Source of the DNA: a virus
Virus record (IMG/VR): IMGVR_UViG_3300050821_005740
Coordinates: 1 to 51,940 of that record
Strand: one strand, 5' to 3'
Length of the DNA: 51,940 nt
Shown here: piece after piece, positions 81 to 48,407 of the stretch
Position numbering within the stretch: position 1 is the first letter of the stretch
Layout of the letters: every line of letters starts with the position of its first letter
Notes under the pieces: generated by a model
Database searches by the model: none
What the model was told of the DNA's origin: nothing
What the model saw: only the letters and a program-made list of their open reading frames with translations
Made by a program: the position numbers and the translations under genes

Positions 81-94
81 CCCCTTGCATGGTG
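81..94. repeat. Dispersed palindrome, degenerate copy
   Basis: CCCCTTGCATGGTG, a degenerate member of the CCCCTTGCAAGGGG family. It lies between the att core and the integrase start. Confidence 0.5.
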
Positions 95-120
95 AAGACA
101 ATCAAATCTGAGGAAAGCGG

Positions 121-1227
121 ATGCCTCGAAAGAATTATTCTCGCATAAAAAAGAAAGATGACGGCATAGCAGTTATTGATGCTGTTAACGATTATCTTGA
201 AAGTCAGCACGTTCAAAATTTGAGTCTAAGGACTCAAGAAGAGTATAGGGATGAACTTCAGACGTTTGCTAGCTGGTGTCAATCCCATCAAATTCGCAAT
301 GAGAAGGGCAAGAGAGAGGCTATAAAAGGTGATGGTGTTCTTATTCATCAGGTTGGCGCTCACGCTGTAAGACTCTTCCTGGACGATTTCCAAGCTACTC
401 ATAAGCCTTCTAAGAAAGGTCAATCTGAGATATCCACTTACACGCTGGCCGGCTATGTTCGTGTGATTAAATCGTTTCTTACCTGGTGCTTGCATGATGA
501 CCAGTATGGTGTAGATATTAAAGTGATTCAGCAGATTGAAAAACCTCGCGTCGTGGAAAAGATTGTCGAAACTTTTTCTCCTGATCAGATTGGAGCATTA
601 TTTAAAGCGTGCGAAAAAGAAGAAAATGACCATCTTCAACTCAGAGATAGAGCTATCTTGGCAGTGTTGCTTGATTGTGGTTTACGGGCAGAGGAACTAA
701 TCACGTTAATCATAGGCAATGTTCATGTAGATCCTGGAGATAGTTACCTGAAAGTGTTTGGGAAAGGGAGCAAGTGGCGTGAAGTTGGAATGGGAATAGA
801 TACGCGAAAATATGTACAGAAATATATTCGTGTGTATCGGGAACCAACAATAGAGTATGCAGTGAAACAGCAGTACAAGAATTTATCTGAACGTCAGCAA
901 AAGCAAAAAAGTAAAGAAATTACACAAGAGTTATGCGTTTTTGTTGGCAGAACTGGCGATAATCTTACTACCAACGGGCTCTTTCAAATTATTCGGCGTT
1001 TAGGTGAATGGGCTCATATAGAAGGCGTTCGGTGTTCTCCACACACTTTTCGTCACACGTTTAGCAGAATGTTTATGGAGAATGATGGGAACATTTATAC
1101 ACTGAGTAAACTGCTCGGTCATACTTCAGTAGGCACTACTGAAACCTACCTCAAAAGCTTACAAAAAAGTAGCGCACGCAAAGGCGCAAAGTCAGTACTG
1201 GATAATATTGACCATTTACAAAAATAG
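121..1227 (+). CDS. int: Tyrosine-type site-specific recombinase (integrase)
   Basis: 368 aa. It carries out phage integration and, with a directionality factor, excision. The N-terminal ~125 residues form the SAM-like core-binding region. The catalytic domain shows the full family set: R189 (CGLRAEE), H308-x-x-R311 (HTFRHTF), H334 (LLGHTS) and nucleophile Y343 (TETYLK). Start ATG has AGGAAAG just upstream. Its position directly beside the tRNA-derived att core supports a role as the lysogeny integrase. It is XerC/D-like in length. A second, only distantly similar recombinase lies at 33.4 kb. Confidence 0.93.
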   Translation: MPRKNYSRIKKKDDGIAVIDAVNDYLESQHVQNLSLRTQEEYRDELQTFASWCQSHQIRNEKGKREAIKGDGVLIHQVGAHAVRLFLDDFQATHKPSKKGQSEISTYTLAGYVRVIKSFLTWCLHDDQYGVDIKVIQQIEKPRVVEKIVETFSPDQIGALFKACEKEENDHLQLRDRAILAVLLDCGLRAEELITLIIGNVHVDPGDSYLKVFGKGSKWREVGMGIDTRKYVQKYIRVYREPTIEYAVKQQYKNLSERQQKQKSKEITQELCVFVGRTGDNLTTNGLFQIIRRLGEWAHIEGVRCSPHTFRHTFSRMFMENDGNIYTLSKLLGHTSVGTTETYLKSLQKSSARKGAKSVLDNIDHLQK

Positions 1228-1236
1228 TGATATACT
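1208..1236 (+). promoter_or_regulatory. Sigma70-type promoter inside the integrase 3' end
   Basis: TTGACC (1208-1213), 17-nt spacer, TATACT (1231-1236). It lies at the end of the integrase gene and would start transcription just upstream of the excisionase-like gene at 1268. Confidence 0.65.
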
Positions 1237-1267
1237 TACGAAAGAACACGTAAGGATGGTATCAAAT

Positions 1268-1444
1268 ATGGTTGATGCACCTCAAGAACGTTTCATGACT
1301 GTAAAAGAGGTTTCTCAGTTTTTGCGCATAAAAGTACAAACAGTATATGACCTGCTTGCAACTGGAGATATTCCAGGGGCAAAATTCGGAAATGCATGGC
1401 GCATTGACAGGGAGAAGCTGGAGAAGAAGTTAGAAGGGAAGTAG
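1268..1444 (+). CDS. Excisionase-like helix-turn-helix DNA-binding protein
   Basis: 58 aa from ATG 1268, preceded by TAAGGAT about 11 nt away. In-frame ATGs lie further upstream, but 1268 is best placed after the promoter at 1208-1236. The sequence (MTVKEVSQFLRIKVQTVYDL, then GDIPGAKFGNAWRIDREKLE) is the compact winged HTH of the HTH_17/excisionase family. Its place directly after int suggests a recombination directionality factor or a small regulator of int. Two further proteins of this fold lie at 39.7 and 50.5 kb, so which one partners which integrase is open. Confidence 0.8.
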   Translation: MVDAPQERFMTVKEVSQFLRIKVQTVYDLLATGDIPGAKFGNAWRIDREKLEKKLEGK

Positions 1445-1471
1445 TTTCGAGCGTCCCCCTACTAAGGCTGA

Positions 1472-1485
1472 CACCTTGCAAGGGG
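1472..1485. repeat. Dispersed palindrome copy
   Basis: CACCTTGCAAGGGG, intergenic, downstream of the excisionase-like gene. Confidence 0.75.
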
Positions 1486-1553
1486 ACTGACCAACGTACA
1501 CGAGTGAGCGTGTAGCTGGCTGGCATAATGATAGCATAAAACCGCTTCAAAAG

Positions 1554-1590
1554 CCTAGTCACTACACCAGAAAGAAAGGACTAGGTTTTT
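1554..1590 (+). terminator. Intrinsic terminator
   Basis: CCTAGTC, 18-nt loop, GACTAGG, then TTTTT. The long loop carries the AAAGGA that may serve as ribosome-binding site for the next gene, so terminator and translation signal overlap. Confidence 0.55.
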
Positions 1591-1593
1591 ATT

Positions 1594-3675: not shown

Positions 3676-3689
3676 CCCCTTGCACGGGG
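3676..3689. repeat. Dispersed palindrome, degenerate copy
   Basis: CCCCTTGCACGGGG, one base off the palindrome, immediately after a stop codon. Confidence 0.65.
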
Positions 3690-3870: not shown

Positions 3871-4437
3871 ATGAGAAACCATAGAATGAATGATGCAGAG
3901 CAAGCGCAAGTAAAATATAATTTTCTTGAAGCATATGCTAAAACTGGGAATATTCTTCTTTCATGTAAAGCTGCTGGCATTGCTAGGAGCACTTATTATA
4001 ATTGGCAAGAAAAAGACGAAGAATTTAGCTTTAAGGCACATCAGGCTGAGAGAGAATTTGCAGATATTGTGTTAGCTGAATTCGTACAACGTGCTGTACA
4101 TGGATATCAAAAGCCAGTGGTGAGCGCTGGCAAGATGGTCTATGATGAGGTTCCTGTTCTGGACCAGTGGGGCAATCAGGTTGTAGACGAACGTGGTATT
4201 CCTCTCTTTGAGCGTAAGCCACTTATGGAACGTGTGGTCAGTGACAACCTGCTAGCCATGGCAGTGAAAAAACATTTCCCTGAATATCGCGAAAAGCAGC
4301 AGATAGATATGAATACGACACAAACAAATGGTCAAGACAAAGCATTGCATGATAAGCTTATGGAAGTTTTAAATGATTATCCTGACATTAAGTATAAGAT
4401 AGCAGAAGTGATGAATGAATTGGGCAAAACTTCTTAA
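3871..4437 (+). CDS. terS: Terminase small subunit
   Basis: 188 aa. Recognises phage DNA at the pac/cos site and hands it to the large subunit. Residues ~10-60 contain the family helix-turn-helix (YAKTGNILLSCKAAGIARS, then TYYNWQEKDEEF). A conserved middle region follows (FADIVLAEFVQRAV). The C-terminal region (about 115-188) is helical and charged. Its place directly before the large subunit, overlapping it by 23 bp, fits. No strong ribosome-binding site precedes ATG 3871; ATG 3886 is an alternative start. Confidence 0.85.
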   Translation: MRNHRMNDAEQAQVKYNFLEAYAKTGNILLSCKAAGIARSTYYNWQEKDEEFSFKAHQAEREFADIVLAEFVQRAVHGYQKPVVSAGKMVYDEVPVLDQWGNQVVDERGIPLFERKPLMERVVSDNLLAMAVKKHFPEYREKQQIDMNTTQTNGQDKALHDKLMEVLNDYPDIKYKIAEVMNELGKTS

Positions 4438-5164
4438 TCCAAATGAACTTGATCCTGTTATTATGGCAAAGAATGCAGGAATTGAGTTAGATGATTGGCA
4501 ATCTCGGCTTGTTCGGAGTAAAGCAAGCCGTGTCTTGGTGAATTGCTCTCGGCAAACTGGCAAGAGCACAACTGTATCAATCATCGCTGACCACATGGCG
4601 TTTTATGAGCCTGATTCGCCTATCCTGCTACTCTCACCATCGCTTAGGCAGAGTAGCGAACTGTTTCGTAAGTGCTTGGAAGTGTACAGAGCACTGGGCA
4701 AGCCTGTTCCTGCAGAAGCTGAAACAGCACTCCGTTTAGAGCTCGAGAATGGGTCAAGGATTATGTCTCTTCCTGGCAAGGAGGGAACTGTCAGGGGCAT
4801 ATCAAAGGTGAAGCTTCTCATCATCGATGAAGCTTCACGCGTCCCTGACGAGCTCTACAAGTCGGTACGCCCAATGCTAGCAGTATCAGGCGGGCGGCTT
4901 ATTCAAATGAGCACGCCACATGGCACACGCGGCTTTTTCTATGAGTCATACAAAAATAAAGTCAATTGGGATTATTATGAAGTTCCGGCTACGGATTGTC
5001 CTAGAATATCTCCTGAATTCTTGGAAGAAGAAAAAGAGGAAATGGGGGAATGGTGGTTTCAGCAAGAATATATGTGCCAATTTATGTCTTCTGCAATGGA
5101 TGCATTTAGACCTGAAGATATCGATAGTATCGTAAAAAAGGACATTGAGGTATGGTCATTGTAG
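4415..5164 (+). CDS. terL: Terminase large subunit, ATPase part
   Basis: 249 aa. Packaging motor ATPase. Walker A-like SRQTGKST spans residues 45-52 with K50, Walker B is LLIIDEAS with D138 and E139, and motif C is IQMSTPHG. The ORF stops right where the nuclease domain would begin, and that domain continues in the next ORF. Normal large subunits carry both domains in 400-600 aa, so this gene is either truly split or interrupted by a frameshift (natural or assembly). Confidence 0.88.
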   Translation: MNWAKLLNPNELDPVIMAKNAGIELDDWQSRLVRSKASRVLVNCSRQTGKSTTVSIIADHMAFYEPDSPILLLSPSLRQSSELFRKCLEVYRALGKPVPAEAETALRLELENGSRIMSLPGKEGTVRGISKVKLLIIDEASRVPDELYKSVRPMLAVSGGRLIQMSTPHGTRGFFYESYKNKVNWDYYEVPATDCPRISPEFLEEEKEEMGEWWFQQEYMCQFMSSAMDAFRPEDIDSIVKKDIEVWSL

Positions 5165-5868
5165 AAGAAGATCTTAACCCAATAACGGTAGGAATAGATG
5201 TGGGCCAAATTAAAGATCCGACCGCCGTTTGTGTGTGTGAAGTGACACAAGTGGATACTGGGAAAGTTCGATATGCTGCAAAGCAAACGTTGGGGAAGCC
5301 TGACCACAAAGGGAACTGGATACCGGCCACAGGTATCGATCCAGTGATGAGATCGGAATACACCGTTCGTCATATCCGGCGTCTACCGCTTGGAACAAGC
5401 TATCCCGATGTCGCAGAACACATTGCAGATATGCTTTGCAATGACTTATTTCAAAATCGCAATGTACGTGTGCTGATAGATGTTACTGGAGTAGGAAGAG
5501 CTATTTATGATGATTTAAAACGTGAAATATCGTTACGCCCGAAATGTAAACATATTATTTTAAAACCTATTAGTTTTGTTCATGGCGAAAAATACAACAA
5601 GACCCTTGGCACACTTGGTAAAGCGTTTCTGGTGTCAAAGCTGCAATCAGCCTTACAAGGCAGACGGGTACATGCGCCTGACACTCCAGAGATGAAAGCG
5701 ACGATTGACGAATTGCGTGTGTATGAGATTAAGGTTACCGATGAGGGGAAAGACACATACGGCGCGTCAATTGGCAAACATGACGACTTAGCAACGGCCC
5801 TAGGCCTATCATGCCTAGAAGATCCATTTTTAGAGCGTGTGCGATATTCAGCAGGAAGGGTGTATTAG
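5152..5868 (+). CDS. Terminase large subunit, nuclease part
   Basis: 238 aa. RNase H-fold nuclease domain that cuts concatemers: GIDVGQIKDPTA with D16 as first metal ligand, VLIDVTGVG as the second acidic strand, and KHDDLATALGLS near the C-terminus as the third. It overlaps the ATPase ORF by 13 nt in the -1 frame. GAGG lies only 3 nt before its ATG, so stop-start translational coupling is the likely way it is made. Together the two ORFs have the length of a normal terminase large subunit. Confidence 0.85.
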   Translation: MVIVEEDLNPITVGIDVGQIKDPTAVCVCEVTQVDTGKVRYAAKQTLGKPDHKGNWIPATGIDPVMRSEYTVRHIRRLPLGTSYPDVAEHIADMLCNDLFQNRNVRVLIDVTGVGRAIYDDLKREISLRPKCKHIILKPISFVHGEKYNKTLGTLGKAFLVSKLQSALQGRRVHAPDTPEMKATIDELRVYEIKVTDEGKDTYGASIGKHDDLATALGLSCLEDPFLERVRYSAGRVY

Positions 5869-6329: not shown

Positions 6330-6518
6330 ATGAGACGATTTCATTTAAAGCAGGATGATTTATCAGTTGAAGGCGTGATGTTTTCAGATGGGTTTGTTGT
6401 GATACATGGCTTGTTTTTCTTTGGGATGCATGTAGTCTCAATATACGAGTTAAAAAATAAATTTCCTAAAGCTAAGATTGAATGGGTAGATAAAGATGAG
6501 AAGGCCGAAAAAGCATGA
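6330..6518 (+). CDS. Small hypothetical protein
   Basis: 62 aa. Predicted mixed alpha/beta with a hydrophobic centre (FVVIHGLFFFGMHVVSIYEL). It starts 3 nt after the previous stop and its stop overlaps the portal start (ATGA). Function unknown. Confidence 0.6.
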   Translation: MRRFHLKQDDLSVEGVMFSDGFVVIHGLFFFGMHVVSIYELKNKFPKAKIEWVDKDEKAEKA

Positions 6519-8080
6519 ACACCACACAAGCACCTCCAAAGACCGATCAGCCTCAATACGAGATCACCGATGAAGACCGTAAACGCATCAAACGCATTCA
6601 AGCCGCTTGGAAAGCCTATGAAGGCGATTTAGAAAAGCCGCTCATCCCAATGGAGAATGAAGCAGACGACAACGTGCTCACAAACGAGATGGCAGGCATT
6701 GTTGATAGGATGGGCGACTTCCTATTCGGCAAGGAACTGGAGATCAAGCCGGATGAAGGATCACCGGCAGATGCACAAGACTTTCTCAATACTGTTTGGG
6801 GAAAGAAAGAAACCCGCATTCCTTTGCTCTTGCGCTTACACATGAATGGTGCAATGTCTGGCCGCGCATTTCTTCGTATCGTCCCAGGTCGTCAAGACGG
6901 CACGTTTCGACTCATCGAAATCGATCCAACCATCATATACGTGCAGACAGCTCCACAGGACTGTCAAACGGTTCTGCTTTACTGTATCCAGTACTGTGTA
7001 GAAGGCAAGGGTGGATCCGATGGGAAGCAAACGATCAAGACCTACTACCGTGAGGAAATATCTCGTATCGATCCCGAATACAATGCAGATAACCAGGAAG
7101 ACGCGCTAGCATCCGGCATTGATCAAAAGATTAGTTGGAGCATTCAGCACTGGACTCAGCAGAAAAACACATCCACCGAATCATCAAAGACCGGATGGAC
7201 ACCTGCAGGTGATCCTATCCCCTGGAACTACCCATTCGAGCCTATCCAGAGTTGTCAGAACTTGCCGAAACCAAACGACTTTTGGGGCTATCCTGACGTT
7301 ACTCCAGATCTCATCGGCGTCAATGAAGCAGTCAATCTCCAAGGCTCCAGCGCAAACCGACTAGGCAAGCTTCTTGGCAATCCGCTTATCTTCTCTAATG
7401 GCATGGGCGAGTCTGATATCGATCGTCGGCCAGGACAAATTATCCATCTCCCATCCGACACCAGCAAGCTGACAGCAGTCGCAGTCCAAGATGCGATAGC
7501 GTCAATCCTATCTATCGTTGAAGATATGCGATCCAGCGTTGATGCACGTTCTGGTGTTCCCTCGGTAGCAATTGGGCGCGTCAAAGACTTGCCAAAGGGC
7601 AATATTTCCGGTGTTCTTGTTGAAATGCTTTACTATCCATTGATAAAGAAAATGGATAAAAAGCGATGCACCTATGGAGATATCGTTATTTCAACCAGTA
7701 AAGCATTAGTGCAATTAAACGGGATGAGTAGTGATATCGATATTTCTCTGTTATGGCAAAATCCGCTCCCGTCTGACGATCTCGGAACAGTTCAATCTGC
7801 AATTGCGAAAAAAGAAATTGGTATCTCGGATACCACATTGCAGCGCGAGCTCGGCTACGATCCTGAAGAGGAGCAAGAACTTTCTCAGCTTGAAGACGCG
7901 AAAAAGCTTGTGAACTTTAGTCGAGGCATGGGTATGCCACCGTCTACCCCCTTGCAAGGGGATGGACAAGCACCTCCTGCTTCACAACCTCCACAGCAAC
8001 AGCCAGGAGGACTTCCACAAGCCGTACCAGGAGTTGCACCGTTACCAGGACAACCACCCGCAATTAAACCAGGGGGATAG
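6515..8080 (+). CDS. Portal protein
   Basis: 521 aa. Dodecameric portal of the capsid vertex through which DNA is packaged. Position after the terminase, length and sequence (ENEADDNVLTNEMAGIVDRM at the N-terminus; RLHMNGAMSGRAFLRIVPGR; the late VDARSGVPSVAIGRVKDLPK region) fit the SPP1-type portal family. The C-terminal ~60 residues are Pro/Gln/Gly-rich and low complexity. They include PLQGDG, produced by a copy of the dispersed palindrome at 7948. Start ATG overlaps the upstream stop. Confidence 0.85.
   Translation: MNTTQAPPKTDQPQYEITDEDRKRIKRIQAAWKAYEGDLEKPLIPMENEADDNVLTNEMAGIVDRMGDFLFGKELEIKPDEGSPADAQDFLNTVWGKKETRIPLLLRLHMNGAMSGRAFLRIVPGRQDGTFRLIEIDPTIIYVQTAPQDCQTVLLYCIQYCVEGKGGSDGKQTIKTYYREEISRIDPEYNADNQEDALASGIDQKISWSIQHWTQQKNTSTESSKTGWTPAGDPIPWNYPFEPIQSCQNLPKPNDFWGYPDVTPDLIGVNEAVNLQGSSANRLGKLLGNPLIFSNGMGESDIDRRPGQIIHLPSDTSKLTAVAVQDAIASILSIVEDMRSSVDARSGVPSVAIGRVKDLPKGNISGVLVEMLYYPLIKKMDKKRCTYGDIVISTSKALVQLNGMSSDIDISLLWQNPLPSDDLGTVQSAIAKKEIGISDTTLQRELGYDPEEEQELSQLEDAKKLVNFSRGMGMPPSTPLQGDGQAPPASQPPQQQPGGLPQAVPGVAPLPGQPPAIKPGG
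7948..7961. repeat. Dispersed palindrome copy in portal gene
   Basis: Exact CCCCTTGCAAGGGG. It encodes P-L-Q-G in the low-complexity tail of the portal protein. Confidence 0.85.
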
Positions 8081-11793: not shown

Positions 11794-12141
11794 GTGAAAC
11801 AAGAAGAATTGATAGAGCAGTTGGCAGATAAAGAACATGCATCGTGGGCAAGGTGGATGGAATACTTGTTTGCTACCTGCGAAAACCATAATGATGGGTC
11901 TGTTACTATTCCAACCGACCTTGTACTGCGATGGTCTAGGCAAGCAAAAACGCCCTATGCAGAGCTATCAGAACGTGAGAAGCAATCTGATAGGGACGAA
12001 GTAGCTCATATCTTGCCCGTTATCGACAATCATGTAAGTGACAATCTGACAAATGCAGTTGTGAAAACAATAAGTCGTGGTGGATTGGGAAATCCTGTAG
12101 GCAAGCACCCAATGAACCCCTTGCAAGGTGGAGAGGGATAA
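11794..12141 (+). CDS. Hypothetical protein with RyR-like motif
   Basis: 115 aa from GTG 11794, TAGGAG upstream. DKEHASWARWMEYLF and TPYAELSEREKQSDRDEV resemble the short conserved phage domain related to the RyR repeat. Specific function is not known. The last residues (NPLQGGEG) come from a copy of the dispersed palindrome, so the repeat forms the C-terminus and lies across the upstream region of the next gene. Confidence 0.65.
   Translation: MKQEELIEQLADKEHASWARWMEYLFATCENHNDGSVTIPTDLVLRWSRQAKTPYAELSEREKQSDRDEVAHILPVIDNHVSDNLTNAVVKTISRGGLGNPVGKHPMNPLQGGEG
12117..12130. repeat. Dispersed palindrome copy at gene end
   Basis: CCCCTTGCAAGGTG(G). It encodes P-L-Q-G-G at the end of the upstream ORF and lies just before the ribosome-binding site of the next. 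Confidence 0.8.
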
Positions 12142-12142
12142 C

Positions 12143-12487
12143 ATGGAAGGGCAAGTAAAAGGTCGAGCTCTTTTGTTGATAGACAATCAAATTACAAAGA
12201 TGGCTCCTGTCAAAATTGAAACCCCAACCTATGGGCGGATTGGATGGGGTTTGATGGAAATGAAAGAGCTTTTCGATCTGTGGAAATCATTTCTTTTGTT
12301 GCCAGAACAATACGCTATTCTTGGAGTGTATTTTGATGCAATGAAACAAATGTGGGCACTTGTTCTTGAGAGTAAAGAGTTACCACCTGTCAAGGTAAAT
12401 ATGGAGCCGCGTCATCTTTTGCCTGTTTATTGGATTGATGAAGATGGCACGGTAGGTATTTCAGAGATGAAATTGATGGATTGGTGA
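12143..12487 (+). CDS. Hypothetical protein
   Basis: 114 aa from ATG 12143, chosen because GGAGAGGG lies 5 nt upstream. Compact mixed-fold protein (RALLLIDNQITKMAPVKIET, then FLLLPEQYAILGVYF). No family recognised. Confidence 0.65.
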   Translation: MEGQVKGRALLLIDNQITKMAPVKIETPTYGRIGWGLMEMKELFDLWKSFLLLPEQYAILGVYFDAMKQMWALVLESKELPPVKVNMEPRHLLPVYWIDEDGTVGISEMKLMDW

Positions 12488-12492: not shown

Positions 12493-12506
12493 CCCCTTGC
12501 AAGGTG
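12493..12506. repeat. Dispersed palindrome copy, intergenic
   Basis: CCCCTTGCAAGGTG, directly followed by the GACTAGTAT motif. Confidence 0.8.
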
Positions 12507-15744: not shown

Positions 15745-16160
15745 TGCCTGACAATACATTCAATCACTTTGGTGATATTGCAAATGCAATACCTGACATT
15801 ATAAGCAAAGTAGTCCGCAAGGTTGCGTTCGATGTTCAGAGTGATGCACAAAGCCTTGCACCACGTGACACTGGATTTTTGGCAAATAGCATCTATGTAA
15901 AGACATCAAAGGATAGCTCATACAGCCAAGTAGGACAACCGACAAGTAAAGATGCTTCACTCTTGCCAGAAATGGAGACACCACCCGATGATCAAACAGC
16001 GTATGTGGCAGTTGGGGCAAATTATGGAATATATCTGGAGTATGGCACGCGCTTTCAACCTCCCCAGCCTTATCTCACACCTGCTGTTGAAGCGGGCCAG
16101 ACATCTTTGGAGAATGCTGCTAGTGAGATTGAGAGCATGATAGAGGATGCAATTGGATGA
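15744..16160 (+). CDS. HK97 gp10-like neck/tail protein
   Basis: 138 aa. APRDTGFLANSIYVK, VGANYGIYLEYGTRFQPPQP and YLTPAVEAG are the family signature of HK97 gp10-type tail-joining proteins. It functions in the neck between head and tail. Overlaps the next gene by 4 nt (ATGA). Confidence 0.87.
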   Translation: MPDNTFNHFGDIANAIPDIISKVVRKVAFDVQSDAQSLAPRDTGFLANSIYVKTSKDSSYSQVGQPTSKDASLLPEMETPPDDQTAYVAVGANYGIYLEYGTRFQPPQPYLTPAVEAGQTSLENAASEIESMIEDAIG

Positions 16161-31773: not shown

Positions 31774-32154
31774 ATGAACCTGAATTTAATTCAGTCGCTC
31801 TCGGCATTATCAGGACTTATTACCGATGGCACCGTACTCTTTATTGCCATTATTGGAAGTTTTTTCCTTGTAAAAAGCGGGATAGGTAAAACTGTGAGTA
31901 AAGCAAACCAAGAGGCTATAACAGCACTTCAAGCAACAATTATAGCTTTACAGGCAGACCTATCAACAATGAGCAGGAAAATAGAGGAGGAAATAAAAAG
32001 AAATGCAAGACTAGATCAAACTATTGATACCATTTGTGCCGCATTAAAAATTAGAGGCATGGTTATCACCATTCAAGGTGAAATGATCCATGTCGAGGAC
32101 AGAAACGGGAAAACGACTACAACCCGTATACATGAGAAAGAGGATCATTCATGA
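31774..32154 (+). CDS. Single-helix membrane protein with coiled coil
   Basis: 126 aa. N-terminal membrane segment (TDGTVLFIAIIGSFFLVKSG), then a long coiled coil (ITALQATIIALQADLSTMSR) and a short C-terminal domain. Between the two holin-like genes, so a lysis accessory (antiholin or spanin-like) is plausible. Overlaps the next gene by 4 nt. Confidence 0.6.
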   Translation: MNLNLIQSLSALSGLITDGTVLFIAIIGSFFLVKSGIGKTVSKANQEAITALQATIIALQADLSTMSRKIEEEIKRNARLDQTIDTICAALKIRGMVITIQGEMIHVEDRNGKTTTTRIHEKEDHS

Positions 32155-32540
32155 ATGAGCAAATTATTCTTGCCCTTATGCCCTATGTTGTTCCTTCCCT
32201 GATAGGTCTCTGTGTGTACATCTATCATCAGGTCTTCCAAGCGTTGCCTGAAAAGCAGAGGGAAGCACTTGAGCAGTTAGCCGCTCCGGCTGTTCAGATG
32301 GTCGAGCAGATGTATGCAAACATCCCGCCAGATCAAAAGAAAGCAGCAGCTATCCATGCAATTGAGCTAGGATTCCAAGCATTCAAAATTCCTGCTCCAG
32401 ATGACGCTATCATCAATGCATTCATAGAAGCTGCTGTATTCGAAATGAACAGGCTCAAACCTTCAACGAACACACAGCAGATCCCCACCTTGCGAGGGGG
32501 AAGTATCGCAATAGACCTAACACAAAAGAAAGGCAACTAA
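32151..32540 (+). CDS. Second LLH-family holin-like protein
   Basis: 129 aa. Same plan as the 31.5-kb holin: one N-terminal membrane segment (MPYVVPSLIGLCVYIYHQVF), then LAAPAVQMVEQMYANIPPDQ and a late IINAFIEAAVFEMN. The extra C-terminal ~25 residues include T-L-R-G-G from a variant of the dispersed palindrome. Paralogous to the first holin. Confidence 0.72.
   Translation: MNEQIILALMPYVVPSLIGLCVYIYHQVFQALPEKQREALEQLAAPAVQMVEQMYANIPPDQKKAAAIHAIELGFQAFKIPAPDDAIINAFIEAAVFEMNRLKPSTNTQQIPTLRGGSIAIDLTQKKGN
32486..32499. repeat. Dispersed palindrome, variant copy
   Basis: CACCTTGCGAGGGG, encoding T-L-R-G near the C-terminus of the second holin. Confidence 0.7.
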
Positions 32541-33330: not shown

Positions 33331-33344
33331 CCCCTTGCAAGGGG
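33331..33344. repeat. Dispersed palindrome copy, intergenic
   Basis: Exact CCCCTTGCAAGGGG upstream of the second recombinase. Its TTGCAA is the candidate -35 box of a promoter. Confidence 0.85.
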
Positions 33345-33419: not shown

Positions 33420-34316
33420 ATGCAGTCGGTTATTAGCTATCATGAGGTAAGACTCATGCAAGAAACAGGTGAAACACTTTTTATTCACATACCGTATGAT
33501 GCAGACTTTATAAAGTTATGGTTACATGGGAAGAGTTATAATACTCAAACGGCATATCTGTTAGATATCCAGAGATTATATGATTTAACTGGCAAGTCTT
33601 TGCGTGAATTAACTCTTGATGACTTCCAAGGTTTTGCTGATAATCTTTATCATCTAAAGCGTTCTTCACGTGCTCGCATTATGGCTAGTGTTAAAAGTGC
33701 TTTATCATTTGGACTAAAAATAGGATATCTACAAGTAAATGTGGGATCTGCTGTGGAGTTGCCCAAATTGGAGAACAAGCTAGCAGAGCGAATACTCAGT
33801 GAACAGCAGATAGCAAAAATGTTTGCACTGGAGGACAACCCGCGTAACCATGCAATACTGATACTGCTCTATCGGGCAGGACTCCGAGTCTCTGAATTGT
33901 GTGATTTAACATGGAGAAATTTACAAGAACGTGATGAAGCTGGTCAGATTGCAGTGTTCGGGAAGGGAAAAAAGACTAGGCATGTTTTACTTGATCCTTC
34001 TACTTGGCAAGAGGTTACAAGTCTGAAGATTGAGAAAGCTGGTCCTGATGATTATGTGTTTCAATCCAGAAAGGGCAAGTCTCGACTAGATGAGAGCACA
34101 ATCCATCGAATTGTTGCCAGTGCATCAAAGCGGGCGGGTATCACTGGGAAAGTTTCCCCTCACTGGATGAGACATGCTCACGCTACCCATGCTCTAGAAA
34201 GAGGAGCTCCAATAACATTGGTACAGGCGACACTAGGGCATGAGAGCATGGAGACAACTGCCAAGTATACCCATGTCCGGCCAAACGCTAGTAGTAGTCA
34301 ATTCTTAGGAATTTAG
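33420..34316 (+). CDS. Second tyrosine recombinase (XerC/D-like)
   Basis: 298 aa. N-terminal core-binding region (LWLHGKSYNTQTAYLLDIQR) and catalytic set R156 (AGLRVSE), H248-x-x-R251 (HWMRHAHATH), H274 (LGHES) and Y283 (AKYTHV). Length and sequence are Xer-like, unlike the 368-aa integrase at 0.1 kb. Possible roles: resolution of phage multimers, inversion or mobility of a cassette, or a second integration system. The last plus-strand gene before the strand switch. Confidence 0.9.
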   Translation: MQSVISYHEVRLMQETGETLFIHIPYDADFIKLWLHGKSYNTQTAYLLDIQRLYDLTGKSLRELTLDDFQGFADNLYHLKRSSRARIMASVKSALSFGLKIGYLQVNVGSAVELPKLENKLAERILSEQQIAKMFALEDNPRNHAILILLYRAGLRVSELCDLTWRNLQERDEAGQIAVFGKGKKTRHVLLDPSTWQEVTSLKIEKAGPDDYVFQSRKGKSRLDESTIHRIVASASKRAGITGKVSPHWMRHAHATHALERGAPITLVQATLGHESMETTAKYTHVRPNASSSQFLGI

Positions 34317-34956: not shown

Positions 34957-34970
34957 CCCCTTGCGAGGTG
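34957..34970. repeat. Dispersed palindrome, variant copy
   Basis: CCCCTTGCGAGGTG, intergenic. Confidence 0.65.
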
Positions 34971-35151: not shown

Positions 35152-35482
35152 TTTTCTTTTCCCTCCGCTTAGTGATGAGCTGCTTCCATTCCCGTGTGAG
35201 ACGGTCATAATTTTGAGAGTCTTTTTCTGTCAATCTTTCACTATCCGCAAGCTTGACGCTAAACCCATGCTCGGCCGACAGATCAAACAGCTCTTGATCG
35301 GTTTGCGCATGTGGGAAAAGCTTTTTGAGCGTGTACCAATAGTCCCGAATGTCTTCAGATTGACCCAGTACACAATGACACGACTCCATAAGGTCAAGAA
35401 AATCAAGGTCTTGACGCTCTTCCCACTCTGGTATGTTCTCATCTAGTAAAGCCGCGCCCGCTTTAATCTCTTCATTAAACAT
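35138..35482 (-). CDS. Hypothetical protein downstream of csrA
   Basis: 114 aa, AAGGAGG 6 nt upstream, overlapping the csrA stop by 8 nt and so co-translated with it. Acidic and helical ([20 protein letters not shown], then [16 protein letters not shown]). No resemblance to FliW, the usual CsrA antagonist, was seen. It may still be a functional partner because of the overlap. Confidence 0.65.
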
Positions 35483-35642
35483 TCTGAACCTCCTTGTCTG
35501 CTATTTCTTCCCTGACAATGTGAATATTGTCAGGCGCTTCAATCCCAATTTTGACTCTTTCACCTTCTATTGAGAGAATTGTCACCTTAATATCTCTATC
35601 AATAATGATAGACTCACCAGCTTTGCGTCTCAGTACTAACAT
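35475..35642 (-). CDS. csrA: CsrA-type RNA-binding translational regulator
   Basis: 55 aa from ATG 35642 (AAAGGA 8 nt upstream). The sequence [20 protein letters not shown], then [17 protein letters not shown], then HIVREEI covers the whole CsrA fold, including the N-terminal LVLxRK and the VxREEI RNA-contact strand. CsrA dimers bind A-N-GGA in mRNA leaders and block or change translation. A phage-borne copy could reprogram host or phage mRNAs. Several genes in this window carry AAAGGATA ribosome-binding sites that resemble CsrA sites. Confidence 0.93.
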
Positions 35643-35662
35643 TGCTTGATTCCTTTCTGTTT

Positions 35663-35710
35663 CTACTTTCAAAAGTAGTGTATACTAGTCATAAATACCC
35701 ACCGGAGCAA
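35663..35710 (-). promoter_or_regulatory. Divergent promoter/operator between csrA and the 35.7-kb gene
   Basis: Minus strand TTGCTC (35710-35705), 17-nt spacer, TAGTAT. On the plus strand TATACT (35681-35686) faces the other gene. The shared GACTAGTAT motif lies over both -10 boxes, and an inverted repeat CTACTTT-CA-AAAGTAG (35663-35678) lies in the csrA leader. Confidence 0.5.
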
Positions 35711-35715: not shown

Positions 35716-36012
35716 ATGGCTTTACAAATGAAGAAGGCCCTTCCATTCGATAAGGAAACGGTATCCACTGCTTTGTCGAGAATGGATACGGAAGTTGTCC
35801 CCATTGTCACCTTGCCAGAGGCTCCAGAACAATCCTCCTTGCAAGGGGTAAGACTACCACGTCTCAGCGTCCATTCATCTTGGATACCCGTGCTCATTTC
35901 ATTGTCTGGTCTCTGTGTGCTCATGCTCTTGTCCTTTGCTTTCTACACGTTCATGATTGTATTCATCTTACTGGGAAGCCTGCTCGGACATGTGGGTCAG
36001 ATCCTACGGTAG
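35716..36012 (+). CDS. Two-helix membrane protein
   Basis: 98 aa, GGAGCAAGGA upstream. Soluble N-terminal ~50 residues (with S-L-Q-G from a dispersed palindrome), then two hydrophobic segments, about 56-75 and 78-94. The only plus-strand gene in this minus-strand block. Function unknown; lysogenic or membrane-exclusion role possible. Confidence 0.6.
   Translation: MALQMKKALPFDKETVSTALSRMDTEVVPIVTLPEAPEQSSLQGVRLPRLSVHSSWIPVLISLSGLCVLMLLSFAFYTFMIVFILLGSLLGHVGQILR
35835..35848. repeat. Dispersed palindrome copy in membrane-protein gene
   Basis: CTCCTTGCAAGGGG, encoding S-L-Q-G just before the membrane segments. Confidence 0.8.
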
Positions 36013-36111: not shown

Positions 36112-36614
36112 GACACACCTCCTCCAAGTCCTCGACACATGATGTCATAGTCAACGTGATGGGTTGTTTCGTACTTGTACGGAATACGTATTCCGCTCTT
36201 GTGGTAGTAGTGATTTAAACGTGACTCAGGCACTCTGAAAGGCGAGAGAACTATATCCACTGGATACGCTTGTGTGTGCTGGCGGAAGAGCTCTACAGCT
36301 TCATAAACAAGGTCAGATGTACGAGCATAGATGTCCGAAACTTTTAAGCACATCCGCCCGTTTTCATCCTTCCAGAAAAACGGAAGAGACTTTTCGATTA
36401 TGTCAGGCTTTGCAACTGGGATTAATGTGGTCTTTTGATTATGAATGTTGATTTTTCTGGTGTACTCCGCTTGCTCTCTTTTCTTCTTCCTCTCTTCGTA
36501 TCGAATATCTTCCAGCAAAAGACCTCCTGTGTTCTTACGATGCATATACATCAGAAAAGCGTGTGGGTTCCAGCCTTGACGAACGGCATGGTAAAGCTCA
36601 TTCGGTTGGATCAT
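36099..36614 (-). CDS. Hypothetical protein
   Basis: 171 aa. Basic helical region (YEERKKKREQAEYTRKINIH) and a C-terminal domain with His residues (SRLNHYYHKSGIRIP, then TTHHVDYDIM). No family recognised. Overlaps the next upstream gene by 4 nt, so part of one operon from ~39.4 kb. Confidence 0.65.
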   Translation of the reverse strand: MIQPNELYHAVRQGWNPHAFLMYMHRKNTGGLLLEDIRYEERKKKREQAEYTRKINIHNQKTTLIPVAKPDIIEKSLPFFWKDENGRMCLKVSDIYARTSDLVYEAVELFRQHTQAYPVDIVLSPFRVPESRLNHYYHKSGIRIPYKYETTHHVDYDIMCRGLGGGVSWVL

Positions 36615-37237
36615 GATTGGGGCTCCTCTCCAAGAAGCTGGGCAGTTTGCCTGAATATTTCGTGATGTCTTGCATAATGCTCAGAATCATCGTCAAGTGC
36701 ATCAATCTGATAATAATGTCTCCACTCTCTCACCAGATTTTCAAGAGCATCGATACGCTTGCCCTGGTCCGTGATATTTGAGGCCATGGCTACACCAGCC
36801 TCTTGCATGGTCTCAAGTTTTTCTTCAAGGTCTGCATTCTCGTCAATGAGATTGTCAATTTGGCTAAAGCAAGCTCTTTTCTCTTTCTCAAGAATATCAA
36901 TGCGACCCTCTTGCACTTGAAACATTTCAAGAAGCTTTTCTACACGGATTTTCGGGTCGCTGATAAGCGATGCATGAGCTATTTGGGTATCCCCTTGCAA
37001 GGTGGTAGCAGGTTCGAGCGTGCCCGTCTCTGCAAAGGCTTGCAAGTAGGGCAAGAGAGATTTGATGTCCTCTTGCAAGAACTTGAAATAATCGCTATCA
37101 GTATCAATGAATAGAACTTTTGTTCCCTTCCCTTGTTTTGAGTGCTCTTCTACCCATAAACGTAAGTCGCTTGCTGATTGATCAGTAAATTCAATCATTC
37201 GATCCAATGAATCTGTTTTAACCTCTTTAATCTCCAT
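36611..37237 (-). CDS. Coiled-coil hypothetical protein
   Basis: 208 aa. N-terminal globular ~75 residues, then a linker with T-L-Q-G-D from a dispersed palindrome, then a coiled coil (about 105-165: FQVQEGRIDILEKEKRACFS onward) and a C-terminal acidic part. No family recognised. Stop-start overlaps with both neighbours. Confidence 0.65.
   Translation of the reverse strand: MEIKEVKTDSLDRMIEFTDQSASDLRLWVEEHSKQGKGTKVLFIDTDSDYFKFLQEDIKSLLPYLQAFAETGTLEPATTLQGDTQIAHASLISDPKIRVEKLLEMFQVQEGRIDILEKEKRACFSQIDNLIDENADLEEKLETMQEAGVAMASNITDQGKRIDALENLVREWRHYYQIDALDDDSEHYARHHEIFRQTAQLLGEEPQS
36991..37004. repeat. Dispersed palindrome copy in coiled-coil gene
   Basis: CCCCTTGCAAGGTG(G); on the coding (minus) strand it reads CCACCTTGCAAGGGG and encodes T-L-Q-G at a domain linker. 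Confidence 0.8.
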
Positions 37238-39432: not shown

Positions 39433-39548
39433 TGTAAAACCTCTTTCTTTTTGCCTAGACATGGCTAGGTCTTTTAAATTAGTGGTTGTGCAGTATCAGA
39501 AACGTGTCTACTGGATTTTGATGTTCCACACAACCTTCACTGGTGACT

Positions 39549-39577
39549 AGTATAGATTGTTATTGTTCATTTGTCAA
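39549..39577 (-). promoter_or_regulatory. Consensus early promoter, minus strand
   Basis: On the minus strand TTGACA (39577-39572), 17-nt spacer, TATACT (39554-39549). A perfect-strength sigma70 promoter for the ssDNA-binding-like gene. The TATACTAGTC at its end holds the GACTAGTAT motif. Confidence 0.8.
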
Positions 39578-39602
39578 GAGTATTGAAAATATTGGTAAAT
39601 TA

Positions 39603-39631
39603 TTGACTAGTATTGATAAGTATGGTACAGT
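39603..39631 (+). promoter_or_regulatory. Divergent early promoter, plus strand
   Basis: TTGACT (39603-39608), 17-nt spacer, TACAGT (39626-39631), driving the HTH gene and helicase. The TTGACTAGTATTGATAAGTA stretch is identical at 47587. Confidence 0.65.
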
Positions 39632-39653
39632 ATTGAAAGTAGTAACCAATTCC

Positions 39654-39667
39654 CACCTTGCAAGGGG
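39654..39667. repeat. Dispersed palindrome copy, intergenic
   Basis: CACCTTGCAAGGGG in the leader of the HTH gene at 39688. Confidence 0.8.
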
Positions 39668-42511: not shown

Positions 42512-43816
42512 TTATTTCTTTTTTTTGAGTGCTTGTTCCAATACCCATTTCCCCCACACTTCCTGGCAAGGGCAGTTTTTATTAATGCATATGCCGGCTA
42601 CTAGGTTCCCTCTTTCCCATTCTCGAATGGTGATCTCGTTGAGATTGACCTCTGGTCCGTGCCACTGGGTTTTTGAAAGGTCAATTGGATATTCCCGTCT
42701 ACCCCTTGCAAGGGGGATAGTGGCTTCTGGCACAGGGGGCTCAATCTTTTTGATTGACATCAGTCCTGCTTCAACCCATTCCCGCAAAGTGCAGCCTTGA
42801 TATCCTTCAAAAAACTTCTTGAGCAAGATATCATTGGGGTCCTTTGCATTGTACGGACTCCATCGCTGGCATTTTGTCTTGAGATGCTCAATCCAATATT
42901 CTGAACCGGAGTCACCCGACTCGTCTTCATCGAAGCTCTGGAGGACATGGGATGCTAGGTTCAGCTCTGCTACCCATCTAGTCAATCGACCGCGTGTCGT
43001 ACTCCCTGTGGCCACACAGGAGATGAGATCTCCAGCCTCTTGCTCCACAGATAGAGCACAGATTTCCCCTTCAACAATCATGGCGGGGAATTCAAATTGG
43101 ATTTCTCCAACGTTGTAAAGACCTTCTCCACTGCCCAAGACTTGTCCATAGGACTGTTTCTCACCAGGACGTTTGATCGCAAGTCTCCAGAGATTTGAGC
43201 CTTCAAACCAGGGGATAAGTATCCCATTGGGAATACGCACTTTATCCTTGCTCGAGGTAGCAGGATCAAGTCCCCACGTCTCCAGATCCGCTTCGTAATA
43301 TTTTCCATTTGATTGAAGAGGAACATACCCCCATCTTTTCTTTTTGAGAATCTCATCACCTAATCCCCTACCGTGTAAGTAGTTACGCATATCTTTACAT
43401 GCAGGACTCCAGAGTGTTGCCACAGCACGATCTATAAGTATCTTGCCTTGCTCTTGCCACATTGCAAGGAGTGGTTGTTCCTTACCAGTTTGAACGCTCT
43501 GAACGGGTTTCGATGGAACATAATCGGCATTCTGCTCGAGACCTAAAATCTCGCACGCTTCAGAATGGGTCATGTTGCAATAATCCTTTAGGAAATCCAG
43601 GCAATCGCCGTTCCATCCACAACCACTGGACCGCGTAGCACAGGTAAACTGCCCTGTTTCTGGTCTTGTTATGAACCTATCATGACCTCCACAGCGAGGG
43701 CAGTTCGAATGGTACTCCAGAACTCCGTGTACCCGTGTCGGCTTGCCCACAATGTCAATGAGTGCGTAATGCTCAATGAGACTTTTCACGTCCCAAACTG
43801 GTGAAAGTGTCGGCAT
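42512..43816 (-). CDS. DNA primase (CHC2 zinc finger and Toprim-like)
   Basis: 434 aa from ATG 43816 (AAGGTGA upstream). Zinc-binding N-terminus NCPRCGGHDRFITRPETGQF followed by a Cys pair (TCATRSSGCGW). A Toprim-like segment appears later (FPAMIVEGEICALSVEQ, then QSFDEDESGD). Makes RNA primers for phage replication. The C-terminal region carries P-L-A-R-G from a dispersed palindrome, the one copy read in a different frame. Upstream overlap with the HTH gene in alternative starts. Confidence 0.87.
   Translation of the reverse strand: MPTLSPVWDVKSLIEHYALIDIVGKPTRVHGVLEYHSNCPRCGGHDRFITRPETGQFTCATRSSGCGWNGDCLDFLKDYCNMTHSEACEILGLEQNADYVPSKPVQSVQTGKEQPLLAMWQEQGKILIDRAVATLWSPACKDMRNYLHGRGLGDEILKKKRWGYVPLQSNGKYYEADLETWGLDPATSSKDKVRIPNGILIPWFEGSNLWRLAIKRPGEKQSYGQVLGSGEGLYNVGEIQFEFPAMIVEGEICALSVEQEAGDLISCVATGSTTRGRLTRWVAELNLASHVLQSFDEDESGDSGSEYWIEHLKTKCQRWSPYNAKDPNDILLKKFFEGYQGCTLREWVEAGLMSIKKIEPPVPEATIPLARGRREYPIDLSKTQWHGPEVNLNEITIREWERGNLVAGICINKNCPCQEVWGKWVLEQALKKKK
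42702..42715. repeat. Dispersed palindrome copy in primase gene
   Basis: Exact CCCCTTGCAAGGGG. Encodes P-L-A-R-G on the minus strand, the only coding copy not in the L-Q-G frame. Confidence 0.85.
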
Positions 43817-43820
43817 GATG

Positions 43821-44447
43821 TCACCTTGTCCTATCTGTATATTTATCTTCACCCAAACGACCTAGCCCTCTGTCTCCTGCCAGAATATCGACGACCCATA
43901 ACCAATCTACACGGCGTTGATCAATTTCTGTCGGATGAGTAACAATAAAATCCCTGATATTTTTATCTGTAAATTGCATCGCTCCCCCTTGCTCAAACCC
44001 CCTGATCCATCCTTTTTTTATCCACATCTGAATTCGTTCATATTTACAGCCAAAAGCCTCTTTTAAATCGGTTCCCGTATAATGATCTAGATTTTTCAAT
44101 CCTCCTCTTAATCCTAAGAAAAAAGCTTTCTTCCTTGTAGAGTCATAGGATTTTTTCAAATCCTTTGCGATATCGTGAAGGCTCTTCTTTCCATAATATC
44201 TCTCAAGATACGATATTTCATGAACAGTCCATTCGATTTTTGTCACTCTCGTAACACCGATCTTACCTGCCCAGTGTTTTACAACTTTACGCGGGACTTG
44301 TAACTCTTTCTGGATAAGTGTTATGCGTTCAGAAGTCCCATCGTATAAGTCCATAATCATGCGGCGGCCTCTCTCATCTAAAATCCATTTTTGTGGTCTA
44401 CCACCAGGGTAGGAGCGCTTTGCCCCTACCATATTGCCCTCTTCCAT
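43821..44447 (-). CDS. HTH DNA-binding protein
   Basis: 208 aa. Two HTH-like segments: RITLIQKELQVPRKVVKHWA near 40-60 and WTVHEISYLERYYGKKSLHD followed by IAKDLKKSYDSTRKKAFFLG (SANT/Myb-like pattern), then a third near 125-150. Overlaps the helicase-methylase start by one base. Likely a regulator or initiation factor for replication. Confidence 0.7.
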   Translation of the reverse strand: MEEGNMVGAKRSYPGGRPQKWILDERGRRMIMDLYDGTSERITLIQKELQVPRKVVKHWAGKIGVTRVTKIEWTVHEISYLERYYGKKSLHDIAKDLKKSYDSTRKKAFFLGLRGGLKNLDHYTGTDLKEAFGCKYERIQMWIKKGWIRGFEQGGAMQFTDKNIRDFIVTHPTEIDQRRVDWLWVVDILAGDRGLGRLGEDKYTDRTR

Positions 44448-46658: not shown

Positions 46659-47003
46659 TTACACCTCCACAATATCTATTCCATATAAAGCTTTTACAAG
46701 CTTGCGCTTTAAATTGTACACAGGTGTTTTCATGCCCTTTACATCCTCAACGACACTATCACCTGTTTTGATATCTGTATAGCGAAAATCAGCTTTATAA
46801 AAGCCAATTTTTTGATCGTTTACTACCAGATCAAAACGAGGCTGCAATTCCAAATCTGTAATTTTTTTTGCACGCTCTAAGAGCAAAAGCTCCTGATAGC
46901 GACCAGCTTCTTTTTTGCTATCAAAAGAAATTCCATACACTTCAGTCTTTTTACTGTGATACTTGCTCTCCCCTTGCAAGGGGGGTTTAGCTCGAATTGG
47001 CAT
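46659..47003 (-). CDS. DUF1064-like nuclease (putative junction resolvase)
   Basis: 114 aa from ATG 47003 (AAAGGAG upstream). KYHSKKTEVYGISFDSKKEA, YQELLLLERAKKITDLELQP, DFRYTDIKTGDSVVEDVKGM are the DUF1064 signature; the D...E-x-K pattern is a PD-(D/E)XK core. Family members are thought to resolve recombination intermediates. Residues P-L-Q-G-E near the N-terminus come from a dispersed palindrome. Confidence 0.85.
   Translation of the reverse strand: MPIRAKPPLQGESKYHSKKTEVYGISFDSKKEAGRYQELLLLERAKKITDLELQPRFDLVVNDQKIGFYKADFRYTDIKTGDSVVEDVKGMKTPVYNLKRKLVKALYGIDIVEV
46970..46983. repeat. Dispersed palindrome copy in DUF1064-like gene
   Basis: Exact CCCCTTGCAAGGGG, encoding P-L-Q-G on the minus strand just before the conserved domain. 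Confidence 0.85.
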
Positions 47004-47007
47004 GGGG

Positions 47008-47211
47008 TTACTCCTTTGTGCATTCAATGCTTCCATCATTCTTGCGAAGAAACATGAAATCAGTTTCTTCGACTCTCAAAGCTACTACATTTGATCTGTC
47101 ATGAGTGCTGTATCCCATGATCAATTGCGCAAAGTCTTTTGATGTAATGTTTTGTCTCAATGGCAAAAGAAAACCGTATGCTTCAATCGCATATTTTGCA
47201 ATATCATTCAT
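47008..47211 (-). CDS. Small hypothetical protein
   Basis: 67 aa, GAAGGAG upstream. Mixed alpha/beta (RQNITSKDFAQLIMGYSTHD, then VVALRVEETDFMFLRKNDGS). No family recognised. Four bases after the next upstream gene region; part of the early minus-strand operon. Confidence 0.6.
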   Translation of the reverse strand: MNDIAKYAIEAYGFLLPLRQNITSKDFAQLIMGYSTHDRSNVVALRVEETDFMFLRKNDGSIECTKE

Positions 47212-47242
47212 GGCTTTTACTCCTTCAAGAAATACACTTTGA

Positions 47243-47500
47243 TCAAATAGCCAGCCCGTTTCGCACTGGAGCTAGTCGATTGCAGAAGAAACAGCGTCCT
47301 GGTTTCTCGCTCTGGTTATTCGCTTGGAAGTTCTCCTCCAGTTGCTCAGCTAAACGCGAATGCTCGCAGTATCGTCTAGCACACACGGTACACCGCATGT
47401 GCCCTCGGAATTGTTCCACGATGAAAATATTGGAGCTGTGTAATTCCCACCTAACTATGACTCCGAGATCATGGCGCTTGTGTTCGGTAAATGTGTTCAT
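47243..47500 (-). CDS. Small zinc-binding protein
   Basis: 85 aa, AAAAGGAG upstream. Cys/His pattern HMRCTVCARRYCEH and a late CFFC. Probably a zinc-finger regulator. First gene under the duplicated consensus promoter at 47533-47561. Confidence 0.7.
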   Translation of the reverse strand: MNTFTEHKRHDLGVIVRWELHSSNIFIVEQFRGHMRCTVCARRYCEHSRLAEQLEENFQANNQSEKPGRCFFCNRLAPVRNGLAI

Positions 47501-47532
47501 TTGTTTTCTCCTTTTGGTGACTTGTTACGACT

Positions 47533-47561
47533 AGTATAGATTATTCATAATCATTTGTCAA
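47533..47561 (-). promoter_or_regulatory. Consensus early promoter, minus strand (second copy)
   Basis: On the minus strand TTGACA (47561-47556), 17-nt spacer, TATACT (47538-47533), with the same TATACTAGTC end as at 39549. Drives the zinc protein, nuclease, helicase-methylase and primase operon. Confidence 0.8.
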
Positions 47562-47586
47562 CAGTATTGATTATTCTAGCAAATAA

Positions 47587-47615
47587 TTGACTAGTATTGA
47601 TAAGTATGGTATATT
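47587..47615 (+). promoter_or_regulatory. Divergent early promoter, plus strand (second copy)
   Basis: TTGACT, 17-nt spacer, TATATT (47610-47615). The first 23 bases match 39603-39625. Drives the genes at 47658-48856. Confidence 0.7.
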
Positions 47616-47657
47616 TGTGGAAGTATTAATGATTTTTCAACGAAAGGAGATTTCTCA

Positions 47658-48044
47658 ATGAAGTGGCGACTACGCCGGATGATGGAAAAATGTATGTTGT
47701 TCCTGGTGAGTATCAAGCCTATTCGCTGGTTTTTTGACCAGCTTTTTAGATTTGGGGAATGGGCAAGTAAAAAGCCATGGCTCCAAACTATCTGGAGATG
47801 GTATAGCAAGCTGTTTAAGCCATTCTGGTATAGCTATCTCATTTATTCACTGGTGATTGATGCTTGGAACCGCAATATCTGGAATGTCCTTATGGATATT
47901 GCTTGCATTCTTCTTGTTTTTGCCCTTGATAACAGACATGGGCCAGACAATAATGAAGAGGACGAACCGGACGAGCCAGATCCTACCCCGAATGGGGATG
48001 CTGTGGACCTGTGGCTCAAAGAACAGCAGAAAACGTTAGTGTAG
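47658..48044 (+). CDS. Membrane-associated hypothetical protein
   Basis: 128 aa, AAAGGAG 8 nt upstream. Trp/Lys-rich N-terminal half with hydrophobic stretches (YSYLIYSLVIDAWNRNIWNV, then LMDIACILLVFAL), then an Asp/Glu/Pro-rich tail. Probably inserted in the membrane. No family recognised. Confidence 0.6.
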   Translation: MKWRLRRMMEKCMLFLVSIKPIRWFFDQLFRFGEWASKKPWLQTIWRWYSKLFKPFWYSYLIYSLVIDAWNRNIWNVLMDIACILLVFALDNRHGPDNNEEDEPDEPDPTPNGDAVDLWLKEQQKTLV

Positions 48045-48068
48045 TTTTTAATGAAAGGATAGAACAAG

Positions 48069-48407
48069 ATGAACAAAAAGGTAACTGGACAGATGATCTA
48101 TGAAGCATTGTCTGCCCTAGTCGAGACGGGACAATACTGCATTGACGATATTGCGCCCGCCGAATCACAAATCTACCCTGATTTAGCGGAGAAACTGAAC
48201 GAGCAACTAACAGAAGAGCCTGAAATCACCATTGACCAGGCAATTGGGCAGTTAAAAGAACTGGGATACATTTATCTACCACAATCGCATGCAAGTACGC
48301 CGATTTGCTGGAAGGTGTTCAAGTCGCTAAATGGAGAATTAAAAACTTGCCACGATGATCAAAGTGTTTTTGATCTGCTCAACTCCTTGCAAGGGGGACT
48401 ATCATGA
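48069..48407 (+). CDS. Hypothetical protein
   Basis: 112 aa, GAAAGGATA upstream. Helical N-terminal half (MIYEALSALVETGQYCIDDI). The last residues S-L-Q-G-G-L-S come from a dispersed palindrome, which also supplies the AAGGGGG ribosome-binding site of the next gene. Function unknown. Confidence 0.65.
   Translation: MNKKVTGQMIYEALSALVETGQYCIDDIAPAESQIYPDLAEKLNEQLTEEPEITIDQAIGQLKELGYIYLPQSHASTPICWKVFKSLNGELKTCHDDQSVFDLLNSLQGGLS
48383..48396. repeat. Dispersed palindrome copy doubling as ribosome-binding site
   Basis: CTCCTTGCAAGGGG(G). Encodes the C-terminal S-L-Q-G-G and places AAGGGGG 7 nt before ATG 48404. Confidence 0.85.

Follow-up and report, generated by a model that had tools for sequence, protein, structure and literature searches.

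HIP1 (GCGATCGC) of cyanobacteria is a short iterated palindrome that occurs in coding and non-coding DNA and is abundant across host chromosomes, while phage P1 has several C1 repressor operators scattered over its genome, which are asymmetric and promoter-tied. In cluster A mycobacteriophages (L5, Bxb1, TipsytheTRex), temperate phages with genomes of about 50 kb, more than twenty short repressor sites called stoperators lie at promoters and in short intergenic spaces, with a similar core and motif differences by group; those of L5 are asymmetric 13-bp sites that follow the direction of transcription and each bind a repressor monomer (PMC9283540, PMC6550527). In Bacillus subtilis, the SPbeta repeated element (SPBRE), reported at intergenic regions, recurs across the prophage and is bound by the master repressor MrpR, which has a tyrosine-recombinase fold without the catalytic residues; the element was known 24 years ahead of its protein (PMC10516654). 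Here, we analyze the palindromic word CCTTGCAAGG, dispersed over IMG/VR virus record IMGVR_UViG_3300050821_005740 (the whole stretch of 51,940 nucleotides, hereafter the window), and propose that the word and its flanks probably form a palindromic operator and roadblock array for a phage-encoded lysogeny repressor that would silence the entire prophage.

The window holds 16 exact copies of CCTTGCAAGG where a third-order Markov background predicts 0.13, and the word recurs about once per two to three kilobases along the genome. Allowing up to one mismatch gives 27 matches, whereas 100 dinucleotide-preserving shuffles gave 1.9 on average and never more than 5. A position weight matrix (PWM) scan, its threshold chosen so that each genome yields about one false positive, detects 26 sites. 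An earlier note on this DNA had counted 20 copies between 81 and 48396 and called them far above chance; its count consists of the 16 exact copies plus variants at 81, 3676, 32486 and 34957, and the Markov comparison bears out the excess. Six of the copies are the full 14-mer CCCCTTGCAAGGGG; as a duplex, the site is written TTCCCCCTTGCAAGGGGGAA. All 16 exact copies have C at -7 and G at +7, but the bases at ±6 vary between two states. The CACC... and ...GGTG versions, previously taken for one element in two orientations, are thus better described as a symmetric site with degenerate ±6 positions, whose asymmetry relative to transcription (44 versus 28 among pooled sites) reveals no strong orientation. 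A literature search for CCTTGCAAGG returned no phage or regulatory-element paper, judged by title or abstract.

The word distinguishes a group of temperate phages that infect Ktedonobacteria (Chloroflexota). Related IMG/VR contigs contain 25 (G024), 24 (G034), 21 (G036), 19 (G037), 17 (G026), 15 (G092), 12 (G012), 9 (G025 and G102), 8 (G101), 7 (G010), 6 (G023) and 4 (G028) copies, and several other contigs recovered by a 14-mer scan have one copy each. Most carriers are metagenomic contigs and several are partial, which weakens tests of co-occurrence. Four capsid relatives, three of them partial contigs, have zero copies and so rule out linkage to the capsid module (G002, G004, G006 and G009; capsid genes shared at 58-70%, other modules not shared). 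Among host chromosomes, that of the ktedonobacterium Dictyobacter kobayashii (Chloroflexota), which encodes a 54% identical relative of the Cas4-like exonuclease of the window, has 15 of its 21 copies within two integrated elements amounting to 0.7% of the genome, and only 6 in the 8.8 Mb outside them. Twelve of the 15 fall in a 21.0-kb element bounded by 49-bp repeats at a tRNA-Met gene and three in a 38.9-kb prophage at tRNA-Arg(CCG). Similarly, 21 of the 31 copies in the G065 genome fall in a 51.9-kb prophage bounded by 46-bp repeats at tRNA-Arg(CCG), and single contigs hold clusters of 16 copies in G083 and 9 in G063. The remaining Ktedonobacteria genomes are mostly near a reversed-pattern control; the large genomes G071, G073 and G074 reach two to four times this control, which is not composition-matched, and show no clusters. 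The likeness to HIP1 drawn by the earlier note extends to a short iterated palindrome in coding and non-coding DNA and no further: host chromosomes hold the word at background level, with its copies clustered in integrated phage elements, and GCGATCGC itself has 0 occurrences in the window, which rules out a HIP1-like host repeat.

The 21.0-kb element of D. kobayashii (L208:17224 to L209:18214, 49-bp attachment-site (att) repeat) is satellite-like: it encodes integrases, a small-terminase-like gene, a frameshifted primase and regulators, and no capsid or tail gene was recognized among the genes scanned. Contig L231 (8.3 kb, 9 sites) has several genes in common with it. The tRNA-Arg(CCG) gene serves as the integration site of two different prophages of the group in two genomes (L225:8903-8948 and the DK2 region, L211-L213).

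PWMs built from the carriers share one near-invariant core and fall into two main flank types that follow phage group. The type TTCC-N-CCTTGCAAGG-N-GGAA (site form CNCCTTGCAAGGNG) is that of the window, G010, G012, G023, G025, G026, G028 and G036, and its counterpart, A-CCCTTGCAAGGG-T, is that of G024, G034, the G065 prophage, the D. kobayashii 21-kb element and, by eye, G092; PRO83 is intermediate, G038 aberrant, and G087 carries a drifted form, CCC(C/T)TGC.... A fixed core with group-specific flanks is what would be expected from a family of diverging DNA-binding proteins. Sites also persist at orthologous places, in 43 of 158 alignable coding sites versus about 2 expected, and a primase site shared by different phages is translated as PLARG, PLQGG or PPCKV, that is, in three reading frames. 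Selection on the sites thus acts at the level of DNA.

Placement was analyzed for 187 sites pooled from 13 genomes, with genes called by our own codon-model script. Co-directional gaps contain 59 of the sites versus 25 expected (p about 1e-10 if sites are independent), and divergent gaps show no clear enrichment (7 versus 4.7 expected). Of the 59, 19 start 1-7 bases past a stop codon; taken singly, seven of the 13 genomes show the junction preference at p<0.05. A count of sites within 20 nt of a gene end gives 32 versus 8.7 expected. Most elements also have a site at the edge of an integrase gene (the window, G024, G028, G034, G036, G092, DK1, DK2, P63 and P83b). Every predicted transcription unit of the window has a site except those at 49098-51125 and 51285-51527, both of which encode helix-turn-helix (HTH) regulators. 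Units encoding HTH_26 or HTH_17 proteins are often site-free in G036, G034 and the G065 prophage as well; the G026 unit is not.

From their sequence, the copies appear to behave as protein-binding DNA sites, and the explanation that we favor, with some confidence, is the array for a lysogeny repressor. A sequence-specific protein, most likely dimeric and encoded by the phage, would recognize the palindrome and, in the prophage, occupy some 20-26 sites across the phage genome. The sites lie in almost all multi-gene transcription units, in many cases in the short stretch that separates a stop codon from the following ribosome-binding site, and also next to the integrase genes. The bound protein would silence lytic genes by two routes, at promoters and as a roadblock to elongation, with the units for small HTH regulators staying site-free. 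The sequences themselves show the enrichment, the conservation at DNA level, the dimer-like symmetry, the flanks specific to phage groups, the confinement to integrated phage elements and the pooled preference for co-directional junctions; that the factor is a lysogeny repressor, that the phage encodes it and that it blocks elongation is what we infer. Several observations weigh against this explanation: 62% of the pooled sites are inside genes, G024 lacks the junction preference (1 of 25 sites), the site-free units are short enough for the absence of sites to be chance, and no protein family with a conserved recognition helix is common to all carriers. Moreover, the gene calls are our own and the pooled p-values treat related genomes as independent.

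Silencing by such operators and roadblocks would work as described for L5 stoperators (PMC9283540, PMC6550527). The array resembles the L5 stoperators in its dispersal (20 near-exact or 26 PWM sites) over a temperate phage, here one with two integrases, in a similar core with group-specific motif differences, and in its use of short intergenic spaces inside transcription units, which is a pooled excess (59 versus 25) and neither a majority of sites nor a feature of every genome. It differs in that the site is palindromic, has no strong orientation and often lies within genes, and in that the host belongs to Chloroflexota. Pfam and PHROGs scans of window proteins, which covered part of the small open reading frames (ORFs) and included no L5 Rep profile, detected no L5-type repressor (N-terminal HTH plus C-terminal stoperator domain). 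Because the site is palindromic and shows neither the asymmetry nor the orientation of L5 sites, we do not count the array as a member of the L5 stoperator family. With SPBRE it has in common a short element repeated across a prophage and, by analogy, may share the master-repressor principle. Unlike the SPBRE/MrpR system, most copies are in genes and both window recombinases keep the catalytic residues (R, K, HxxR, H, Y), which rules out either of them as a degenerate-integrase repressor of the MrpR type, and the array is therefore not filed under SPBRE/MrpR. Like the C1 operators of P1, the sites are scattered over one phage genome, but most sites here are away from divergent promoter regions.

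Among other explanations, the sites could belong to a host-encoded DNA-binding protein (a nucleoid protein, global repressor or roadblock factor) for which the phages have accumulated sites. The same core does recur among phages with as little as 30-60% protein identity, and the distribution of the sites is not matched by that of any one phage protein with a conserved recognition helix; against this, host chromosomes beyond integrated elements show only background levels of the word, the flanks vary by phage group, and phages that share the capsid module without the other modules have no sites (their hosts are not established). We consider a host protein unlikely. Slightly less likely still is that the sites serve the replication, recombination, segregation or packaging of phage DNA and not its transcription. 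The sites tracked a module of exonuclease, single-strand-binding (SSB)-like protein and helicase in the first genome set, and their spacing is somewhat even in the window, G012 and PRO65, but it is not even in G024, G026, G034 and G092, and DNA metabolism would not require clustering at co-directional junctions just past stop codons. Carrier G092, with 15 sites, lacks the exonuclease, the SSB-like protein and the helicase, which rules out strict linkage to this module.

We regard as improbable that the copies act as RNA hairpins (terminators, processing signals or occluders of ribosome-binding sites), perhaps together with the CsrA homologue encoded at 35475-35672, although CCCCUUGCAAGGGG is able to form a 5-bp stem and many sites come right after stop codons or ahead of ribosome-binding sites. 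The one-sided core change CCCTGCAAGG occurs 14 times in the G065 prophage, 13 in G092 and 9 in G034, and a single compensated core pair was counted among 14 genomes; one-sided changes without an excess of compensation speak against an RNA stem. The central TGCA, which would form the loop, is as conserved as the stem, no T-run is seen downstream of the sites, and there is no Rfam match. The missing compensation, T-run and Rfam match rule out a hairpin or terminator as the main function. Least likely by far is a mobile mini-palindrome inserted at many places, which the many near-identical copies in genes and intergenic regions might suggest: conservation is limited to 10-20 bp with flanks that drift by phage group, and in homologues without a site the gap fraction at the site is 5%, versus 4% in the flanking protein sequence. 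This absence of an extra gap indicates that sites arise by substitution in variable parts of proteins and not by insertion; a transposon or mini-insertion, already doubted in the earlier note, is ruled out by this comparison.

For the repressor that we favor, none of the candidate families, HTH_26, RRW HTH_17 or SWIM-like zinc finger, has decisive evidence. A 58-aa HTH_17 protein with the putative recognition helix TTVRRWIKSG (50460-50636, minus strand) lies in a site-free unit and could bind the palindrome. Six of the eight genomes with the window flank type encode it; outside this flank group only a distant one occurs, in a host remnant, a restriction that counts against it as a binder for all carriers. 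The other candidate, an 80-aa Cro/CI-type HTH_26 protein (51285-51527, plus strand), is also in a site-free unit, and HTH_26 proteins are present in most carriers. Subtype A, to which the 80-aa protein belongs, is found with the same recognition helix in the site-free phage G089, and subtype B is missing from the window, G036 and DK1, both of which likewise weigh against the repressor explanation. HTH_26 as a universal binder is weakened by HTH_26-rich phages and host chromosomes without sites; host chromosomes have dozens of HTH_26 copies. The SWIM-type zinc-finger family, present in the eight longest carriers (8/8) and in none of five non-carriers, only two of which are long, may be regarded as a weak lead. 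A DUF3761-like membrane protein encoded beside sites was dropped as a regulator after Pfam searches.

Two further observations concern HTH_26. The Ktedonobacteria chromosome G075 has 39 matches to the small HTH_26 family (MIRLKVKEVA...) and no enrichment of the palindrome. G089 (L290-L293, 75.6 kb), the site-free phage with a related HTH_26 protein, has a dispersed word of its own, GTCAAGAGTT, with 10 copies on both strands, mostly within (G)TGTCAAGAGTTG.

The window, from a virus of soil bacteria, represents a temperate tailed phage or a prophage. It has structural genes for a small terminase, a split large terminase, and portal, head morphogenesis, scaffold and major capsid proteins, and further genes for two tyrosine integrases, a Cas4-like exonuclease, helicases, a primase, a Holliday-junction resolvase and a lysozyme-like protein. 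By portal protein, its closest named phage is Microcystis phage Mae-JY09 (29.5%). The sites begin with the variant CCCCTTGCATGGTG (81-94), 27 bp upstream of the tyrosine integrase gene at 121-1227 (plus strand, catalytic residues present). Like the other variants, CCCCTTGCACGGGG (3676-3689), CACCTTGCGAGGGG (32486-32499, at the end of ORF 32151-32540) and CCCCTTGCGAGGTG (34957-34970), it was detected by the search allowing one mismatch and by PWM. Exact 14-mers lie at 7948-7961, toward the 3' end of the portal gene (6515-8080); at 20614-20627, near the end of ORF 18224-20806, with a counterpart at the orthologous position of G012; and at 25788-25801, abutting the stop codon of 25416-25787 and ahead of the ribosome-binding site of 25816-26586. 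The remaining ones are at 33331-33344, 87 bp upstream of the second tyrosine recombinase gene (33420-34316, plus strand, catalytic residues present) and at the same place in G036; at 42702-42715 in the primase gene (42512-43852), kept in the G012, G034 and G036 orthologues in a frame that differs across the family; and at 46970-46983, between 47008-47211 and the resolvase gene (46659-47003).

The form CACCTTGCAAGGGG is found in a co-directional gene gap (1472-1485), at the start of ORF 16157-16618 (16201-16214), toward the 3' end of ORF 30228-31454 (31304-31317, common to the G023 and G026 orthologues) and between a promoter-like repeat at 39545-39645 and the HTH_17-helicase operon (39654-39667). 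CCCCTTGCAAGGTG is located at the end of ORF 11794-12141 (12117-12130), a few bases past the stop codon of ORF 12128-12487 and before the scaffolding protein gene at 12567 (12493-12506), and in ORF 36611-37237 (36991-37004, common to the G023 and G036 orthologues). CTCCTTGCAAGGGG occurs within ORF 30228-31454 (30617-30630), between genes of the leftward early region (35835-35848) and at the junction of 48069-48407 and 48404-48856 (48383-48396).

Other features of the window include the 101-bp promoter-like repeat, whose copies at 39545-39645 and 47529-47629 are 81% identical, contain iterated AGTATTGA words and lie upstream of two rightward units. The large terminase (4415-5868) is split into overlapping ORFs, 4415-5164 and 5152-5868, where some relatives have one long ORF. 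The CsrA homologue (Pfam E 4e-21) has relatives in G023 and G024. On the reverse strand, positions 1-45 read like the 3' half of a tRNA gene, which suggests a possible att site or provirus boundary at the start of the window.

Few phage groups have documented repressor arrays that span the genome, and our literature searches found no phage study on Ktedonobacteria. If the array reading is correct, a palindromic, direction-insensitive array in phages of this class would mean that such prophage silencing arose more than once. It is possible, though we hold it only tentatively, that the palindrome is a conserved address common to widely diverged phages of one bacterial class and to its satellite-like elements, through which a common phage or host protein would silence all of them via roadblocks within and between genes, a direction-insensitive form of the stoperator principle that would couple satellites to their helper phages. 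The same sites in the 21-kb satellite-like element make joint control of phage and satellite testable, and the word can serve as a sequence tag for recognizing prophages and satellite-like elements in Ktedonobacteria genomes.

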